A stretch of DNA of 64,000 nt. Origin: an uncultured Sphingomonas sp. Its GTDB lineage: Bacteria; Pseudomonadota; Alphaproteobacteria; Sphingomonadales; Sphingomonadaceae. The DNA lies in contig NZ_CAMLDL010000009.1 of assembly GCF_946478955.1 (NCBI RefSeq), positions 51,480 through 115,479 of the forward strand. Direction: 5' to 3'. Positions 46,414 to 54,399 of this stretch are shown here, one piece after another (within the stretch, counting starts at the first letter, position 1; each line of letters starts with the position of its first letter). The position numbers and the translations under genes are program-made. Under the pieces are notes generated by a model, which ran no database searches, was not told the origin of the DNA, and saw only the letters and a list, made by a program, of their open reading frames with translations.

Positions 46414-47100
46414 ATGCCCCGTCGCCGCAAATCCCGCTGGTCCTGGCCCAAGCGAATCGCGCTTGCGATTCTCGCTCTCCCGCTCGCCTATGTGGCGGCT
46501 GCAATTTTGGGGGCGCTCATTCCTGTCAACGCGAGTTGGAAGGAGCCTGATGAAGGCATCACCATCTACCTCGCCGACAATGGTATCCATGCAGACCTGA
46601 TTCTCCCGATGCGCGCCGAAGGGTTGGATTGGGAGCGGATGTTCCCGGCACATGACTTTCAGGAAAAGCCGTCCGATCCGCAATGGATCGCGATTGGCGC
46701 TGGGGAGCGGCGCGTCTATCTGGAAACCCCGGCCTGGACCGACATAACGCCCGGCACCATCTGGGCTGCGACAACGGGCGGGGACCGGGTGATGCACGTC
46801 GAATGGATTTCCGCGCCCGATTATGCCGTGCGTCAGATCAGGCTGACGCCGGAACAATATCGCCGCTTGTGGGTCGCCGTCCGCGCCAGCTTCGTTCTCG
46901 ACGCAGATGGCAGGCCGGTGCACATCGACCATCCAGGCTATTGGAAGCGTGACGCCTTTTACGACGGAGTCGGAAAGACCAGCGCCATTCAAACCTGTAA
47001 CCAATGGGTCGCCAGCCGGATCAGGCTCGCAGGCGTCAAGGCGCCGTTGTGGGCGCCCTTCACGCCGGGCATTACCTGGCGATATCGCGGCGCGCCCTAA
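46414..47100 (+). CDS. TIGR02117 family (DUF2459) protein
   Basis: 228 residues from the ATG at 46414 ([19 protein letters not shown]): basic N-terminus and one membrane anchor (about 15-35), then a periplasmic DUF2459 domain: [37 protein letters not shown] and [16 protein letters not shown]. The family has a papain-like NlpC/P60 look (NGIHADL and TCNQW resemble Cys/His regions), but no activity is established. The frame open further upstream overlaps the tRNA gene and is rejected. Convergent with hslU; the two stops overlap. Confidence 0.85.
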
Positions 47101-48440
47101 AGGACGTAGCGGCTCAGGTCCGCGTTCTTCGCAATTCCGCTCAGCTGCTGGTCAACGAAGGCGCCGTCAATGGTCAGCGTCTCGCCCTTGCGATCCTCTG
47201 CGGTAAAGCTGACGTCTTCCAGCAGCCTTTCCATCACCGTCGATAGGCGGCGGGCGCCGATATTCTCAACCGCGTCATTCACCTCTGCCGCGATCCGCGC
47301 CAGCGCGGCAATTCCGCTGTCGTCGAAGCTTATATCCACATCCTCGGTTTTCAACAGCGCCCGATATTGTTCGGTGAGGCTGGCCCGGGTGTCGCTCAGG
47401 ATCCGAACGAAATCCGCCTCTGTTAGAGCGGCCAGCTCAACCCGGATCGGCAAGCGCCCCTGAAGCTCTGGCAGCAGGTCAGCGGGCTTTGCGACATGGA
47501 AGGCGCCAGACGCGATGAACAGGATATGGTCGGTTTTGATCGGTCCATATTTGGTCGCAACTGTCGTCCCTTCGATGAGCGGCAACAGGTCGCGCTGCAC
47601 GCCCTCGCGGCTGACGGAGCCGCCGCGCACATCGCTAACCGCGATCTTGTCGATTTCGTCCAGGAAAACGATGCCGTTTTCCTCTGCGTCGGCCAACGCC
47701 ACGCGCGTCACATCGTCCTGATCGACGCGCTTGTCGGCCTCTTCCTCGACCAATTTGGTGAACGCGGCCGGCACCTTCAGCTTGCGCTTCTTCTTGGGCG
47801 GTCCGCCGGTCATTTTCGACATCATTTCGGTAAGGTTGATGACGCCCATGCCGCCCTGCCCCGGCACATCGAATGGCATTGATGGCGCTTCAGCGACCTC
47901 AATTTCCACTTCTGCGGAATCGAGTGCGCCATCGCGGAACCGCTGGCGGAAACTTTCGCGGGTCGCTTCGGATGAGCCCTTGCCGGTCAAAGCATCTAGA
48001 AGCCGGTCCATCGCCGCGCCTTCTGCTGCTTCGCGGACCCGTTCACGGCGGCGTTCGCGCTCCAGCCTGACCGCTTCCTCGACCAGATCGCGGGCGATTT
48101 GTTCAACGTCGCGGCCAACATAGCCGACTTCGGTGAATTTGGTTGCCTCGACTTTCACAAAAGGCGCATCGGCAAGCTTCGCCAGGCGCCGCGATATCTC
48201 GGTCTTGCCGCAGCCGGTCGGCCCGATCATCAATATATTCTTCGGCGTCACCTCGGCGCGCAACTCCGGAGACAGTTTCTGCCGACGCCAGCGATTGCGT
48301 AGCGCCACCGCCACCGCTTTTTTTGCATCCGTCTGGCCAACGATATGTTCGTCCAGTGCGGCGACGATCGCCTTCGGGGTCAGCCCTTTGTCGGACGTGG
48401 GCGCAGCGGCGGGACGGTCAATGGTGATATTTTCGTTCAT
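47097..48440 (-). CDS. hslU: ATP-dependent protease ATPase subunit HslU
   Basis: 447 residues from the ATG at 48440. AAA+ unfoldase that feeds substrates to HslV. Walker A GPTGCGKT, Walker [15 protein letters not shown], the I-domain insertion (about 110-230), sensor motif [18 protein letters not shown], and the C-terminal tail LSRYVL that docks into HslV. A 12-codon in-frame extension has no support. Unusually, hslV is not adjacent: the oxidoreductase gene lies between them. Confidence 0.95.
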
Positions 48441-48472: not shown

Positions 48473-49564
48473 TCAAGCCGTGCAGCGAAATGCGCTAAAC
48501 AGTTTGCGGTGTGAGTCTACAATCCGGGCCGTGATCGCCGGGTCGGGCGTCGTGTCCCATTGATCATGCTCGAACGTACCGCCAAGCAGGATGCCGTCAC
48601 CGCGCGGGAACATATAGCCGGCATTACCCAGAAAGGCGTAACGGACCGCCGATTGCGGCTCCAGGATCGCCAGTTGTCCACGAATGGGATGGAGGTCGGT
48701 GTCGCTGAAAAGGTCGCGGCTGCCCAGCCCGGTGCAATTGAAGATGAGATTTTCTGAAAGGCCCATCAGCTCGGCCGGGCTGGTGAATTTGCGAACCTCG
48801 ACCCGGCCGCCGGCGATCATGACGTCGCGCATCATCTGCCGTAGGTATCGTCCGACCTCGACATACATGGTGTCGTATCGAAAGACCTTTTCAACCGGAA
48901 ACGGATGCGCCGCCGGTTCGATCATTCGATTGATGGGCGGGAAATTGGCAATAACGGGAACTTCGGGCGTCCCGTCTTCGACATAGGTTGGCAGCCATCG
49001 AATGCCGTAATCGTCGCCCACCATGATCTGAAATCGTCGCCAGCTATACTCCAGCGCACGCGAAAACTGGGCACGAAATTCCGGCGTGACATCGCTGCCG
49101 CGAAAGACAGAAAATGGATGGAATTGACCGCCCGCAATATTCGACGTGGTTTCGGGTGGCAGGGCAGCGGAATAGATAGTGACCGGAAACCCTGCGTCCT
49201 GCACCAGCCTGGCCATCGACAGGCCGACAATGCCGCTGCCGATGACGGCCACCGGACCGGTATGACCAGGCAGGCCAATGTCGGCCGCAAGCTTCGACGT
49301 GCCCCAGCTCAGGGTAATGCCGCCGCCGCCATGACCATAATTGTGAACCAGCTTTTTGCCGCCCAGCGGTTCCGCCCGAACGACAAATCCCTGGCGCCGA
49401 AACGGCCGAAGGCCGACCACCGAGCGGATAACGCGCGCCGGATCGACGTCGACTGGTGTAAGCGGCGTGCAATCTGTTCGAGCCAATCGGGTTGGCCCCA
49501 CCGTCGCGCAGCCCGCCACCAGGCCCGCACCGACCGTTCCAAGAAAGTGGCGGCGATCAAACAT
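48473..49564 (-). CDS. Tat-signal FAD-dependent oxidoreductase, D-amino-acid-oxidase-like with permuted domain order
   Basis: 363 residues from the ATG at 49564. The N-terminus [19 protein letters not shown] combines a Tat-type RRHFLG motif with a lipobox cysteine (Cys19). Next comes GLRPFRR (51-57), then [15 protein letters not shown] (74-88), and only afterwards the FAD dinucleotide motif VIGSGIVG (107-114). In D-amino-acid oxidases the Rossmann motif is N-terminal and GFRPVRP...HNYGHGG is C-terminal. Here the C-terminus stops just after [14 protein letters not shown] and a final helix, where the missing segment would normally begin. Total length equals a normal oxidase, so this looks like a circular permutation, not a duplication. 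Probable periplasmic D-amino acid or related amine oxidase. It sits between hslV and hslU. Confidence 0.8.
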
Positions 49565-49590
49565 CACCGCCCTACCCTAACCCGCTTTGA

Positions 49591-50139
49591 TCAGGCTTCA
49601 ACCACCTCAATGGTCAAACGGTCATTGGTGAAGACACACACCTCCGCCGCAATAGCCATCGCACGGCGAGCGAGCTTTTCGGGATCACCTTCATAATCGA
49701 CGAGCGCGCGAGCTGCGGCGAGTGCATAATTGCCGCCGCTGCCAATGGCGACGACACCGTCGCCCTCGGTCGTCTCGGGCTCCAGCACGTCGCCATTGCC
49801 GGTAATCACCAGCAGGCTGTCCTTGTCCGCGACGATCATCATCGCTTCCAGGTTGCGCAAATATTTATCGGTGCGCCAATCCTTGGCCAGTTCTACCGCA
49901 GCCCGAAGCAATTGCCCGCGATGCTGCTCCAGCTTTTTTTCCAGCCGTTCGAATAGCGTGAATGCGTCTGCCGTTGCGCCCGCGAACCCGCCGATAACGC
50001 TGCCATCACCGAGGCGCCGTACCTTCTTTGCGTTGGGCTTGATGACCGTATTACCAAGGCTGACTTGTCCGTCGCCGGCGATGACGGTCCGCCCGCCCTT
50101 CTTCACCCCAAGGATGGTTGTTCCATGATATTGTTCCAT
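49591..50139 (-). CDS. hslV: ATP-dependent protease subunit HslV
   Basis: 182 residues. Threonine protease; the N-terminal MEQYHG is removed to expose Thr7 in TTILGVKK. Family motifs [22 protein letters not shown] and [17 protein letters not shown] are present. A sigma32-like promoter can be read just upstream, with a predicted start almost at the ATG. It is followed by the FAD oxidoreductase and then hslU in the same direction. Confidence 0.95.
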
Positions 50140-50182: not shown

Positions 50183-50770
50183 CTAGGCCCCGTCCGTTTC
50201 GTGCAGCGCCCGTTCCACGCGCAGGTCAGGGATGAACCATATAATGGCAATGGCGATGTAACAGACCACCGCCGCATAGACGTTGACGAACGACAGTGCG
50301 ATCCCCGCAAATTGAATCGCCAAGCTTATCCACTCCTTGGTGCCATGGCCCAGCGCCGCATGGAGGGCGCCATTCTCACCTTCCGACACAATCACCGTCC
50401 GCTCCAACAAAATATAGGCGAGGGAGGACATCAGCCGCACCACACCATAGGCCGCAACCGGCAAGGCATGGAGCCCGTCCTCGCCGATCCATCGGATGAC
50501 AAATGGAAACAGGCTGAGCCAGAATAATAGGAACAGATTGGACCATAGAATCCTGCCGTTCACGTGGCGGACAAGGCTCATCATATGATGGTGGTTGTTC
50601 CAGAAGATGCCCACGTTGACGAAGCTGAGTGCGTAGGCAACGAACAATGGGACGTCGGGCCGCAACGCGTCCCAGGTCGAGTCCTTTGGCGTTGGTAATT
50701 CCAGCACCATGATGGTGATGACGATGGCAATTACGCCATCGGTGAACGCGTTGATCCGCTCGGTTCTCAT
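50183..50770 (-). CDS. TMEM175 family (DUF1211) putative potassium channel
   Basis: 195 residues from the ATG at 50770. RINAFTDGVIAIVITIMVLEL is the signature first segment (RxxxFxDGVxAIxxT). FWNNHHHMMSLV follows, and about six membrane segments are present in total. Bacterial TMEM175 proteins form tetrameric K+-permeable channels lacking the canonical selectivity filter. The longest frame, back to 51046, runs into the upstream hydrolase and is not used. Confidence 0.88.
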   Translation of the reverse strand: MRTERINAFTDGVIAIVITIMVLELPTPKDSTWDALRPDVPLFVAYALSFVNVGIFWNNHHHMMSLVRHVNGRILWSNLFLLFWLSLFPFVIRWIGEDGLHALPVAAYGVVRLMSSLAYILLERTVIVSEGENGALHAALGHGTKEWISLAIQFAGIALSFVNVYAAVVCYIAIAIIWFIPDLRVERALHETDGA

Positions 50771-50798
50771 GGACTGACTGCTCCCCCGCTGAGCCGCT

Positions 50799-51731
50799 TC
50801 ACTGCGCCGGGCCCGCGCGGACTTCAAGCACACGGTGCAGGAAGGCCACAACGTCGTCACGCACCGGATTGAGATGTCGGAACAGCGGAGAGAAGCTTTT
50901 AATGAGATCGCTGTGTGTTTGGCCGCGATAAAGCTTAACTTCCACCTCTGCGCCTGACGCCGCCAGCGTGCGGGCCATCGACTGGCTATTGCGGGCGCGG
51001 ACCACAACGTCGCCGGTTCCGGTGATAAGCAACGTAGGCGGTGCATCCGCGCGCGCGAAGTGAACTGGCATCACCGCCGCCGGATCAGGCCAGTCGCCCA
51101 TCGCCAGCCGGGTTTCACGATAAGCCATCGGATCGAAATCGAACGGACCCGACAGCAGCGCCGTCGCCCGAATGTGATCGACGACACCGTAGCGCGGATC
51201 GTAAGCGATGAGAGCTGCCAGATGCGCGCCCGCGCTGTGGCCGCTAACGGCGATGCGCGATGGATCGCCGCCGAAATCCCCGGCATGACGGGTCGCCCAT
51301 CTCACCGCCGCCGCGCCGTCCTCTACAAATGATGGGAAGACATGGTCCGGCAAACGGCGATAATCGGGAAGCACCGCGATAAAGCCCTTCGCCGCCAACG
51401 CCCGACCCACAAAGCCAAAGTCGCGCCGCTCCCCGCTTTCCCAGCCGCCGCCATAGAAGAAAATGATAATGGGAAGCGGACCGCTCGCCCCATTTGCCGG
51501 AACCCAAACATCCAGCATTTGGCGCGGATCGGGTCCGTAAGCGGCCGAGGCGGCAAGTATGGCCCGATCTCCGCCCCACACCCGGCGACTGGCCCAATCG
51601 AGCATCGCGGCTAAACTGAGGCCAATCCGCGGAAGCCGGTCGAGCGCGCCCCGGGCCATGGAAACGATGCGACGGCCAAATGGTCCCGGCTTGCGTGGTC
51701 GCTGGGTCGGATACGCGCTCGACAGTTTCAT
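50799..51731 (-). CDS. Alpha/beta hydrolase (BD-FAE/esterase type)
   Basis: 310 residues. The oxyanion-hole motif is FFYGGGW instead of the commoner HGGG. Nucleophile Ser166 in SGHSAGAH; the catalytic acid is near LLITGTGDVVV and the His in GQTHSDL. Bears a hydrophobic N-terminal region but no clear signal peptide. Resembles the acetyl-xylan/feruloyl esterase-like and kynurenine-formamidase-like groups; the substrate is unknown. It begins 3 bp after the holin gene, in the same direction. Confidence 0.85.
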   Translation of the reverse strand: MKLSSAYPTQRPRKPGPFGRRIVSMARGALDRLPRIGLSLAAMLDWASRRVWGGDRAILAASAAYGPDPRQMLDVWVPANGASGPLPIIIFFYGGGWESGERRDFGFVGRALAAKGFIAVLPDYRRLPDHVFPSFVEDGAAAVRWATRHAGDFGGDPSRIAVSGHSAGAHLAALIAYDPRYGVVDHIRATALLSGPFDFDPMAYRETRLAMGDWPDPAAVMPVHFARADAPPTLLITGTGDVVVRARNSQSMARTLAASGAEVEVKLYRGQTHSDLIKSFSPLFRHLNPVRDDVVAFLHRVLEVRAGPAQ

Positions 51732-51734
51732 GGC

Positions 51735-52148
51735 CTATTTCTCAACACCCTTCACCTTGCCCCAAGTCCTCGCCGCTGTGTACCCGAGGTACCCGGTGCC
51801 GAATAGCGCGTAGAGCTCCTCCGGGATCCCGCGCAGATAGGCCGCCATTCCGGTGACGATACTTTGCGCCATTTTGGGGTCGGCCGCGGCGATCAGGCCC
51901 ATCGGGATCGCCCACAGAATGAGCGCATACATCATGTAGAGAAAGCTGGGGCGGGCCCGGCTCGTCCAGGGGTCGTTGGATTGCGCCTCTGCGACGATTG
52001 CCTGCATCTGCGCGCCGATGGTCGCTAGTTCCTGATCACCCTGCAATTTGATCAGCTCGAGCTTGGCTTTGTCGCGCGCCTGCGGGTCAGGGATGATCTT
52101 GTCGAGGAGTTTTGAAACGGGGCCAATGATGGCGTCGAGAAATCCCAT
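51735..52148 (-). CDS. 3-TM holin, GTA-release type
   Basis: 137 residues from the ATG at 52148 (MGFLDAIIGPVSKLLDKIIPDPQARDKAKLELIKLQGDQEL). An amphipathic N-terminal helix and a charged helix precede NDPWTSRARPSFLYMMYALILWAIPMG and further hydrophobic segments. This is the pattern of the 'holin of 3 TMs for gene-transfer release' family (Pfam GTA_holin_3TM). It would permeabilise the inner membrane so that the endolysin encoded upstream can reach the wall. No phage structural genes are in the window. Confidence 0.85.
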   Translation of the reverse strand: MGFLDAIIGPVSKLLDKIIPDPQARDKAKLELIKLQGDQELATIGAQMQAIVAEAQSNDPWTSRARPSFLYMMYALILWAIPMGLIAAADPKMAQSIVTGMAAYLRGIPEELYALFGTGYLGYTAARTWGKVKGVEK

Positions 52149-52244
52149 GATACTAGTCCTTATGAACGGCAGTTGGCGCTTCGCTAAGTTCACAAATTCG
52201 TGGACGGCGGCGCCTTTTCAGACCGAATGTGTGATTTTTGAGCG

Positions 52245-52793
52245 TCAAAATGTACCAATTCGGTTGGCAAGCCAACCGTAGAGAAATGCCTCATTGGCTG
52301 GGCGCTTCTCCGCGAGGCGAAGGTACCGTTCACCCTGCAAGGCCTCCAACGCGCGGAGGAGTACCGTCTCGCCGCCGCGCAGGCCCCGCGCTGCAAGGAA
52401 AGCCTCCAGGGCGGCGAGCGTCAATGCGCCTATCCGCCCATCGGGCGTCAGGTCGGGATAATCCTTGCCGTTTCGGTTAAGCGCGGTCAGCGCGCGCTGC
52501 AGGAAGGTCGTCGCGACAGACGGCCCCATATTGACCCCTGTGTCAAACAATTCCGCAGCGACCCGCGGCAAGCGCCTGGCCACCTGGTCAAAGCGGGGCC
52601 GGAGCCAGAAGAGACGGCGGTAAATGGCAGCCGCTTCGGCGCGAGGAAGTGCGCGCATCGCACCGCCATATCCGTGCGCCCGTGCGACCGCTTCGGTAAT
52701 TCCGAACATTGTCGGACCGCCACGATCGGCGGGGTGATGTACATAGCCGCCTTCCCGGTCGATCAATTCGTCGATTAATCCCACTTCGTCCAT
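52245..52793 (-). CDS. Glycoside hydrolase family 108 lysozyme (endolysin)
   Basis: 182 residues. N-terminal GH108 catalytic domain: LIDREGGYVHHPADRGGPTMFGIT, where the Glu of EGGY is the catalytic acid. A peptidoglycan-binding domain follows (LFDTGVNMGPSVATTFLQRAL and LTPDGRIGALTLAALE). No signal peptide, so release needs a holin, which is encoded 96 bp downstream. The start ATG at 52793 follows GAGGTG. Typical of phage or gene-transfer-agent endolysins. Confidence 0.9.
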   Translation of the reverse strand: MDEVGLIDELIDREGGYVHHPADRGGPTMFGITEAVARAHGYGGAMRALPRAEAAAIYRRLFWLRPRFDQVARRLPRVAAELFDTGVNMGPSVATTFLQRALTALNRNGKDYPDLTPDGRIGALTLAALEAFLAARGLRGGETVLLRALEALQGERYLRLAEKRPANEAFLYGWLANRIGTF

Positions 52794-52857: not shown

Positions 52858-53547
52858 TTATTCTCGAGACTGGAGCGCGGATAGCACCTTCTGCGTCAGC
52901 GCCTCACAGTTCGCCCCGGCGAAGGGGAAAGTGCCGATCATCGCTGATCCCACTTCGGGCGCCAACGCGTCCCGCATTTTACGGCGGGCACGCATCAAGC
53001 GCGTCTTAACGGTGGCCGGAACCAGTCCCAAGACCTCGGCCGTTTCCTCAACGCTCAGTCCCTCAATATCACGCAGCACGAACACCGACCGAAATGCATC
53101 GGGAAGACTAGCCACGGCCCGCTCCAACAATTTCCGGAGCTGTTCGCGGGCCAAGCCGACATCCGGCGCCGGCGGATCCGATCCCCGCATTAACATCTCG
53201 CGATAGGTTTCCAGCACGGCAACTCCTTCCGCATCAAGATGCCCTTTGCGACGACGATTGGCGCGAATGCGACCAAGGGACTCATTAATGACGATCCGGG
53301 TCAGCCAGGTTGACAGGGCCGACCTTCCTTCAAATTCGTCGATGCGGTCAAAGGCCTTGAGATAGGCCGCCTGAACGACGTCCTCCGCTTCCGTCCGGTC
53401 CTTCACAATGCTCCATGCCGCGCGAAACAAACGCTGGTTGTTGGTCGTAATCACGAGGCGTAGCGCAACCGGATCGCGCCGGGCACATCGCCGCGCTAAC
53501 TCCAGGTCGTCCGCCGCGACTGGCGAAACCTGCTGCAATGCCGTCAT
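52858..53547 (-). CDS. ECF-type RNA polymerase sigma factor
   Basis: 229 residues. Region 2 (QRLFRAAWSIVKDRTEAEDVVQAAYLKAFDRIDEFEGRSALSTWLTRIVINE) and region 4 (LPDAFRSVFVLRDIEGLSVEETAEVLGLVPATVKTRLMRARRKMRDAL) are complete. A C-terminal extension of about 35 residues contains FAGANCEAL with a single Cys. No anti-sigma factor gene is adjacent. Its start overlaps the end of the cupredoxin gene (ATGA), which follows the DUF4142 gene, so the three form one operon with the sigma gene last. Confidence 0.9.
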   Translation of the reverse strand: MTALQQVSPVAADDLELARRCARRDPVALRLVITTNNQRLFRAAWSIVKDRTEAEDVVQAAYLKAFDRIDEFEGRSALSTWLTRIVINESLGRIRANRRRKGHLDAEGVAVLETYREMLMRGSDPPAPDVGLAREQLRKLLERAVASLPDAFRSVFVLRDIEGLSVEETAEVLGLVPATVKTRLMRARRKMRDALAPEVGSAMIGTFPFAGANCEALTQKVLSALQSRE

Positions 53548-53864
53548 TTTGCAACCCCCATCATCGTTCGCATCGCTGGGTGATACCGGCAGCTAACCGA
53601 CAATGGTCCCGCCTCGCGGATGGTGACCGTCGCCGATTTTCCGGGCTGCAGATCAACATCAAAGCTACCGTCCTTTGCCGTGGCCGTATGGCGAAACATA
53701 TCGCGGTTTACCCAGAATATCCGGTCGCCGACACGCAATCCAGCGGGCACCGTGCCGAACGCCATCTTGTCGATCACGACGGTATAGGTTCGCGATGCTG
53801 CGGAAGCCGGGGGCGAAGGCATCTGCAGCATCGCGGCGACGGCCAGCATGAAGGAGGTTCTCAT
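53544..53864 (-). CDS. Periplasmic cupredoxin-domain protein
   Basis: 106 residues. Signal peptide ending PASAA, then a plastocyanin-like domain: VVIDKMAFGTVPAGLRVGDRIFWVNRD. Copper ligands appear complete: His in MFRHTATA, then Cys, His and Met in CRYHPAM. A small blue-copper electron carrier or copper-binding protein. Coupled by overlap to the sigma factor, and 7 bp after DUF4142. Confidence 0.88.
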   Translation of the reverse strand: MRTSFMLAVAAMLQMPSPPASAASRTYTVVIDKMAFGTVPAGLRVGDRIFWVNRDMFRHTATAKDGSFDVDLQPGKSATVTIREAGPLSVSCRYHPAMRTMMGVAK

Positions 53865-53871
53865 TTGGCCG

Positions 53872-54399
53872 TCAAAGCTCGGTCTTCAGATGTTCGGCGT
53901 GGACCTGATGCTCACTGAAAAGAGTGAGGCCGCTTTCCAGCAACGATTTCAGTTCGCCGTTATCTGCTGCGGGAATCAGTGTATTTTTGAGCGCGCCGTT
54001 CACCGTTTGGTGAAAGGCGATTTCATTATCCACATAAGCGCGGTCGAAGGCCGCACCGCTCAGATGGGCCAGCCGATCCCGGTTTGTCGCAGCCTGCGTC
54101 GCCAATGCCTTGCTGGTGTCATTGTCGACCGGCGTAACGCCCAATTTCCGGACAAGCGCCAGCGCCTGATCGTTCACCGCCTGATGATCCCGCAGCATGA
54201 CCGACGCGAAGGACCGCACCTCCTTGTTGTGCGACTTGGCAAGCGCCTGCTTTGCCGCATCAACATCGAGCGCGCCTGCGGTGTAGGCGATGTGGGCGAT
54301 CACTGCGTCACTCGGACCGCCATCAGCGGCGGCGGTTGCGGCCGCCGCCATTATCGAGGTGGCCGCCGCTACGGCGAGTAGACGAAGGGTGATGGTCAT
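53872..54399 (-). CDS. DUF4142 periplasmic protein
   Basis: 175 residues. Signal peptide ending AATAAA, then the ferritin-like four-helix DUF4142: AAKQALAKSHNKEVRSFASVMLRDHQAVNDQALAL...ALATQAATNRDRLAHLSGAAFDRAYVDNEIAFHQTVNGAL. Function unknown; genes of this family are often linked to stress-responsive sigma factors. First gene of the DUF4142-cupredoxin-sigma operon. Confidence 0.9.
   Translation of the reverse strand: MTITLRLLAVAAATSIMAAAATAAADGGPSDAVIAHIAYTAGALDVDAAKQALAKSHNKEVRSFASVMLRDHQAVNDQALALVRKLGVTPVDNDTSKALATQAATNRDRLAHLSGAAFDRAYVDNEIAFHQTVNGALKNTLIPAADNGELKSLLESGLTLFSEHQVHAEHLKTEL

Follow-up and report, generated by a model that had tools for sequence, protein, structure and literature searches.

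The gene and its protein

This study concerns a gene for a flavoenzyme of the D-amino-acid oxidase (DAAO) type in a 64,000-nucleotide stretch of DNA from an uncultured Sphingomonas sp. (contig NZ_CAMLDL010000009.1), the whole of which is called the window here. The gene occupies 48473..49564 on the minus strand. A sequence-only reading had placed it at these coordinates, correctly, and had left the strand unstated; the minus-strand reading is open throughout, and the plus-strand reading contains stops. With ATG taken as the start, the single open frame encodes 363 amino acids (P0001), and an alternative in-frame GTG start lies one codon before this ATG, at 49567. The Pfam family DAO (PF01266) matches P0001 with 115.2 bits against a gathering cut-off of 27.9 (E 6.2e-33), the best stretch being residues 105-358 on positions 2-299 of the 353 in the profile.

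Reading from the N-terminus, P0001 consists of a predicted twin-arginine signal with a lipobox, assigned from sequence and conservation (residues 1-29, 49478..49564; DRRHFLG followed by VAGC with Cys19), a conserved Cys32 (49469..49471) that is a candidate disulfide partner of Cys361, a moved segment equivalent to the C-terminal part of canonical DAAO (residues 41-99, 49268..49444; PDB alignment and hhalign), and a Rossmann/flavin adenine dinucleotide (FAD) body equivalent to the N-terminal part (residues 103-362, 48479..49258; Pfam, PDB, structural matches, and hhalign). The conserved Cys361 (48482..48484) is the third residue from the C-terminus, and all of these features are on the minus strand. 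The motifs GLRPFRR (51-57), HNYGHGG (74-80), and VIGSGIVG (107-114) are where the sequence-only reading had put them, and the protein ends 26 residues past [11 protein letters not shown]. The strict canonical DAAO order, with the GxGxxG strand N-terminal and GHGG C-terminal, is thus reversed in P0001.

P0001 is a circular permutant of the DAAO fold

The canonical C-terminal segment had been claimed to stand before the Rossmann body, and searches of P0001 against PDB sequences with phmmer bear this out. In human D-aspartate oxidase (DASPO, 6rkf), P0001 residues 102-346 match chain positions 12-261 (i-Evalue 2.6e-18) and residues 32-94 match positions 267-331 (i-Evalue 7.1e-6), so that the order of the two stretches is swapped. 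The same swap is seen in the alignments of P0001 to fungal 7ct4, yeast 1c0i, and pig 1an9, and the segment order of DAAO and DASPO (pig 1kif, human 6rkf) is the opposite of that in P0001. The swapped order is beyond chance.

To score order directly, P0001 residues 30-363 were restarted at every third residue and each rotation was compared with a profile of six canonical-order bacterial DAAO-like proteins from our survey of the Edaphobacter phylum. The best single-domain score, 173.2 bits over profile positions 3-305, came from starts at residues 99 and 102, and native-order P0001 scored 125.9 bits over positions 3-251. Rotated P0001 thus aligns over 3-305 with ordinary-order bacterial DAAO-like proteins (L081-L085, L087, P0121-P0240). 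In hhalign comparisons with 138 canonical sequences, the N-terminal part of the family (28-100) aligned with columns 258-316 (E 1e-23) and its C-terminal part (290-363) with columns 184-259 (E 2.2e-18). Residues 103-362 as a whole correspond to canonical columns 3-259. Coverage of the profile is therefore complementary, and the two ends meet at columns 258/259 in a seam without loss; residues 28-40 are extra and align with no canonical column.

A fusion of two enzyme copies was also considered and is ruled out, since two matches to the tail segment were found in 0 of 94 permuted proteins. A second copy of the moved segment at the C-terminus was one of the findings that, by the sequence-only reading, would have refuted it; in P0001, hslU begins directly after the stop codon, about 32 bp away if it starts at the ATG at 48440, as we infer. 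Its claim that the protein is a permutation of one enzyme and not a two-copy fusion is upheld by the swapped matches, the rotation scan, the seam at 258/259, and a confident structure model.

In that model, a monomer, residues 31-100 have a block pLDDT (predicted local distance difference test) of 95-99, a helix ends at residue 97, and the Rossmann strand begins at 105, leaving seven residues between them. A domain-swapped oligomer, in which the N-terminal segment completes a neighboring subunit and not its own body, would be compatible with a monomer model and would leave an identical pattern of conservation; the confidence of the model over 31-100 and the short link from 97 to 105 make this arrangement improbable. 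Two results limit the assignment of the whole protein to the DAAO fold: the structural alignments returned for the model cover only residues ~100-358, with the moved segment outside, and an NCBIfam scan of P0001 gave only matches below cut-off, none of them DAAO-specific. Within ~100-358, DAAO and DASPO are the nearest solved relatives by fold, as they are by sequence, and the structural Z of glycine oxidase ThiO is lower, at 17-18. ThiO belongs to the same DAO superfamily and has the canonical segment order; its model TIGR02352 matches P0001 weakly, at 56.1 bits against a curated cut-off of 250.8, and membership of P0001 in ThiO was rejected. The two parts of P0001 are homologous to those of DAAO, swapped, complementary, and not duplicated, and we regard P0001 as almost certainly a natural circular permutant of the DAAO fold.

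Distribution of the permuted order

Of 7995 candidates scored in a protein search with P0001, 7956 matched. In the best 120 of these, a set that includes P0001, 119 have HNYGHGG before GxGxxGL by a simple pattern, and one is without a pattern. A scan of GTDB gave at least 594 pattern matches, 577 of which were confirmed as relatives; the 80 loci kept all have the permuted order, which answers the call of the sequence-only reading for homologues with the same arrangement and, because the query was permuted, says nothing of the relative frequency of permuted and canonical forms. Of 100 proteins in which both modules occur, 94 likewise have the permuted order; most were picked by a permuted query. 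By record title the family occurs in Sphingomonadales, other Alphaproteobacteria, Gammaproteobacteria, Acidobacteriota, Gemmatimonadota, Eremiobacterota, Chloroflexota, Bacteroidota, and a few more groups; many of the GTDB loci are metagenome bins, whose taxon labels can be wrong.

Genomes were also surveyed with P0001 as query (E 1e-8, with only the best-looking candidates per genome scored). Matches occur in 33 of 149 genomes from the family of a Sphingomonas genome (G001) and in 11 of 249 from the phylum to which it belongs; judged by their match ranges, all of these are permuted. The phylum of Edaphobacter yielded 17 matching genomes out of 149 (10 permuted, 6 canonical, 1 fragment) and that of Larkinella 22 out of 198, with 3 permuted (one of them, L137, very divergent), 10 canonical by sequence, and 9 sequences left out. 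Plasmid records gave 13 matches, and of 8 examined, 6 were permuted and 2 canonical. One locus with no frame matching both modules (L088) was dropped. The permuted gene of a Mesorhizobium plasmid (L102:2926-3989) is split by its annotation into two overlapping reading frames, and its order was judged by eye. Another locus carries, upstream of its intact permuted gene, a second copy of the N-terminal part that is short and decayed (L089:2780-3127, minus strand).

The permuted order is a feature of a cross-phylum family and not a one-off. An artifact, whether from misassembly or from the joining of a stray C-terminal fragment to a broken gene, has a negligible chance of explaining P0001 given the 80/80 GTDB loci, the 94/100 two-module proteins, the 33/33 matching genomes in the Sphingomonas family, and the second tail copy seen in 0/94; assembly artifact was rejected on the GTDB and family counts.

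Origin of the permutation

All rows were brought to canonical order before trees were built, with 97 and 56 of 247 classified rows used and eukaryotic DAAOs outside both trees. In the 97-row quick tree a single order change suffices (support 97). In the 56-row tree one branch parts 36 permuted from 20 canonical rows (support 100/99) and recurs in every one of 200 bootstrap trees, placing the ordinary-order bacterial proteins on its opposite side from P0001. The divergent L137, whose end branch in the 97-row tree is 3.01, was kept outside the 56-row tree and outside the residue counts quoted below. These trees fit a single permutation event in the sampled rows. Canonical order is the rule in the DAO superfamily, and on that basis, the trees being unrooted, we take it to be the older state. 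Within the permuted rows, clade C is separate in the 56-row tree (support 100/99); the labels A and B are operational, and neither is one clade in that tree because L077, L080, and L138 group with B in the 97-row tree.

Predicted export signal

P0001 contains RRHFLG and the lipobox VAGC, and R4, R5, G18, and C19 are invariant in the 24 rows of alignment A1. To follow the signal further, we applied pattern rules of our own, which look for RR followed by a hydrophobic stretch within the 95 residues that precede the moved segment. In the first set, all 94 permuted proteins satisfied this loose twin-arginine rule. In 86 of them a small residue followed by Cys is present as well, and the remaining eight look more like signals without a lipid Cys; the counts are approximate, as translation starts were not settled for distant members. 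RR with a hydrophobic stretch occurs in 119 of the best 120 close proteins (P0001 included) versus 4 of 120 canonical proteins. A lipobox rule without RR does not discriminate, with 119/120 close proteins, yet 82/120 canonical ones, matching.

P0001 thus has the twin-arginine, hydrophobic stretch, and lipobox Cys of a twin-arginine translocation (Tat) lipoprotein, and the earlier prediction of such a signal gains support from its conservation across relatives. The evidence is less favorable in clade C, where four of five proteins (Bradyrhizobium, Rhizobium, Nonomuraea, and one further) have no signal by eye; the fifth, L126, has one. The idea that permutation is strictly required for export was rejected on these four proteins. 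For P0001 itself, export by Tat is very probable.

Substrate site

In human DAAO the substrate carboxylate is bound by Arg283 and Tyr228 and the amino group by Gly313 (PMC6279847). The equivalents of pig Arg283, Tyr228, and Gly313 in P0001 are Arg53, Tyr317, and Gly80 of GHGG. None of 108 permuted and 138 canonical rows departs from Arg53 or the GHGG loop, and Tyr occupies the Tyr317 place in 71 of 82 rows of clade A and in all 5 of clade C.

Other observations speak against a simple transfer of DAAO function. Clade B has mostly Ser or Asn at the Tyr317 place (9 and 5 of 21 rows), and therefore probably differs in substrate or chemistry. Pig lid Tyr224 aligns with Gly313 of P0001 and has no Tyr partner, and the places of pig Leu51 and Gln53 are taken by Gln147 and His149; because of these changes, which set P0001 apart from DAAO and DASPO, its substrate may differ. 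To our knowledge, the lid Tyr is not universal in the DAAO family. Human DASPO Arg216 and Arg237, whose roles are described in PMC8260693, align with Phe in P0001. Taken together, the kept Arg, Tyr, and Gly, the altered Leu51, Gln53, and Tyr224 places, and Phe at the DASPO Arg places favor, with moderate confidence, a small or neutral D-amino acid.

The differences from the pig pocket and lid, the Phe residues at the DASPO Arg places, and the S9-type peptidase genes near some permuted genes (on the same strand in L063, L067, L073, and L105, where the peptidase gene is upstream) could also point to another small amino or hydroxy acid or a peptide end residue. This remains a tentative alternative, as P0001 retains the GHGG loop and the Arg and Tyr that bind the carboxylate, and the nearest solved relatives are DAAO and DASPO. 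On balance we lean toward a D-amino acid as the substrate of P0001.

A candidate cysteine pair at the new ends

Cys32 and Cys361 flank the cut, and both are invariant in the 24 rows of A1. All of the best 120 of the 7956 matches have a Cys at the Cys32 place and another within the last four residues; after residue 20, 104 of these proteins have three cysteines and 16 have four. Among 94 wider rows, 37 have both cysteines, 56 neither, and 1 a single one. With other windows, the numbers in 106 rows are 33, 72, and 1, the single N-only row (L128) being a truncated slice and so a slicing artifact; these are 106 of 109 permuted rows, two being without an H[NH]YGHGG string and L126 without a GLRP-type string. 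On the tree the two cysteines change 4 and 3 times, and of three independent pairs on starred branches, two are concordant and one is without difference (p 0.5). With so few changes, the co-occurrence is suggestive and not significant, a point that counts against pairing. We nonetheless lean toward a Cys32-Cys361 disulfide that would close the new ends.

Gene neighborhood

The permuted gene lies between the genes of a cytosolic protease. On the minus strand, hslV (49591..50139; TIGR03692 and NF003964 above cut-off) ends 26 bp upstream, and hslU (47097..48440; TIGR00390 above cut-off) follows, its ATG at 48440 being our choice within a mechanical open reading frame that extends to 48476. The gaps of 26 bp and, for this start of hslU, 32 bp make co-transcription of the three genes likely. 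A scan for promoters and terminators was uninformative, with 2 promoter-like sites versus 1.0 expected and 1 terminator-like site versus 2.2 expected.

Among 24 sphingomonad loci of the GTDB scan, 23 have hslV upstream and 22 have hslU downstream; L015 has neither, and the sequence of L007 stops too early for hslU. The family survey adds four clade A loci, three with both genes (L098-L100) and one with neither within 4.5 kb (L089), for clade A sphingomonad totals of 26/28 for hslV and 25/28 for hslU. The spacing from hslV to the permuted gene is 0.5-1.5 kb in some loci. Neither gene was found at E 1e-10 in the available flanking DNA of the other 56 GTDB-scan loci, and clustering of neighbors outside sphingomonads gave no general partner.

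Three clade B loci of one subclade (L105, L123, and L124) have a small c-type cytochrome gene directly downstream, which in the first two lies at L105:4119-4547 (checked with Pfam) and L123:4645-5061. Our pattern rule for cytochromes failed to pick up L105 and L124, and its one match in L108 looks spurious. A gene with a CxxCH motif, for which no Pfam match was found, lies 0.5-3.6 kb downstream on the same strand in 8 gammaproteobacterial-type clade A loci, including L025. From the cytochrome genes of the clade B subclade it follows that some members may be dehydrogenases feeding cytochrome c. Extended to P0001, this would make it a permuted DAAO-fold dehydrogenase, and not an oxidase, passing electrons to a periplasmic cytochrome c or quinone. 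The three loci, among 21 clade B rows, and the eight CxxCH genes bring this possibility to a little below an even chance; sphingomonad loci instead have hslV and hslU beside the gene, and the neighbors of one subclade need not apply to P0001.

On rhizobial plasmids (L101, L102, and L104) a gene annotated as a thiamine-diphosphate enzyme follows a permuted gene without a visible signal, and in L101 and L104 an FAD-binding oxidoreductase gene precedes it, of the berberine-bridge type by Pfam in L101. These neighbors possibly form a small pathway.

Elsewhere in the window, all on the minus strand, 50183-51046 encodes a homologue of the TMEM175 potassium channel (PF06736), and 51735-52793 holds a gene-transfer-agent-type holin with three transmembrane segments beside a glycosyl hydrolase 108 protein, an arrangement like the lysis pair of phages or gene transfer agents. 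At 52858-54399 a probable extracytoplasmic function sigma factor, identified by eye, lies near a weak cupredoxin-like match and a DUF4142 protein.

Proposed function and significance

The reading that best accounts for these observations, and which we consider probable as a whole, is that P0001 is a permuted, Tat-exported, lipid-anchored flavoenzyme of the DAAO fold that oxidizes a D-amino acid. P0001 would fold with FAD in the cytoplasm, be exported in the folded state by Tat, and be cleaved at the lipobox and anchored by lipid on Cys19; its twin-arginine signal and lipobox set it apart from DAAO and DASPO. Its active site would be built across the permutation, the moved segment contributing Arg53 and Gly80 and the body contributing Tyr317. 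Outside the cytoplasm the enzyme would convert a small D-amino acid, whose source may be peptidoglycan or peptides, to an imino acid, and the flavin would be reoxidized by O2 or a periplasmic electron carrier; the choice between O2 and another acceptor is about evenly balanced. In sphingomonad-type proteins the Cys32-Cys361 disulfide may close the new ends. DadA and L-amino-acid deaminase, which oxidize amino acids and pass the electrons to the respiratory chain, offer a possible functional parallel.

DAAO is among the best studied flavoenzymes. A search of the open-access literature, with preprints and most subscription papers outside its scope, found no description of a permuted DAAO, and the string "permut" does not occur in PMC12452685, PMC9844085, and PMC4699246. 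P0001 is a DAAO-type enzyme with a new segment order, and its permutation is real and conserved. A broader account stands at even chances: that the permutation arose once and gave rise to a cross-phylum flavoenzyme family, mostly of Tat-exported envelope lipoproteins, with signal-less or cytochrome c-coupled branches and with a sphingomonad disulfide that replaces the lost peptide link.

With many members lying beyond one branch, this natural permutant offers a way to test directly how well a permuted fold is tolerated and how it spreads. An exported and possibly disulfide-clamped DAAO scaffold could serve in biosensing or biocatalysis. For the bacteria that carry it, the family points to D-amino-acid oxidation at the cell envelope.
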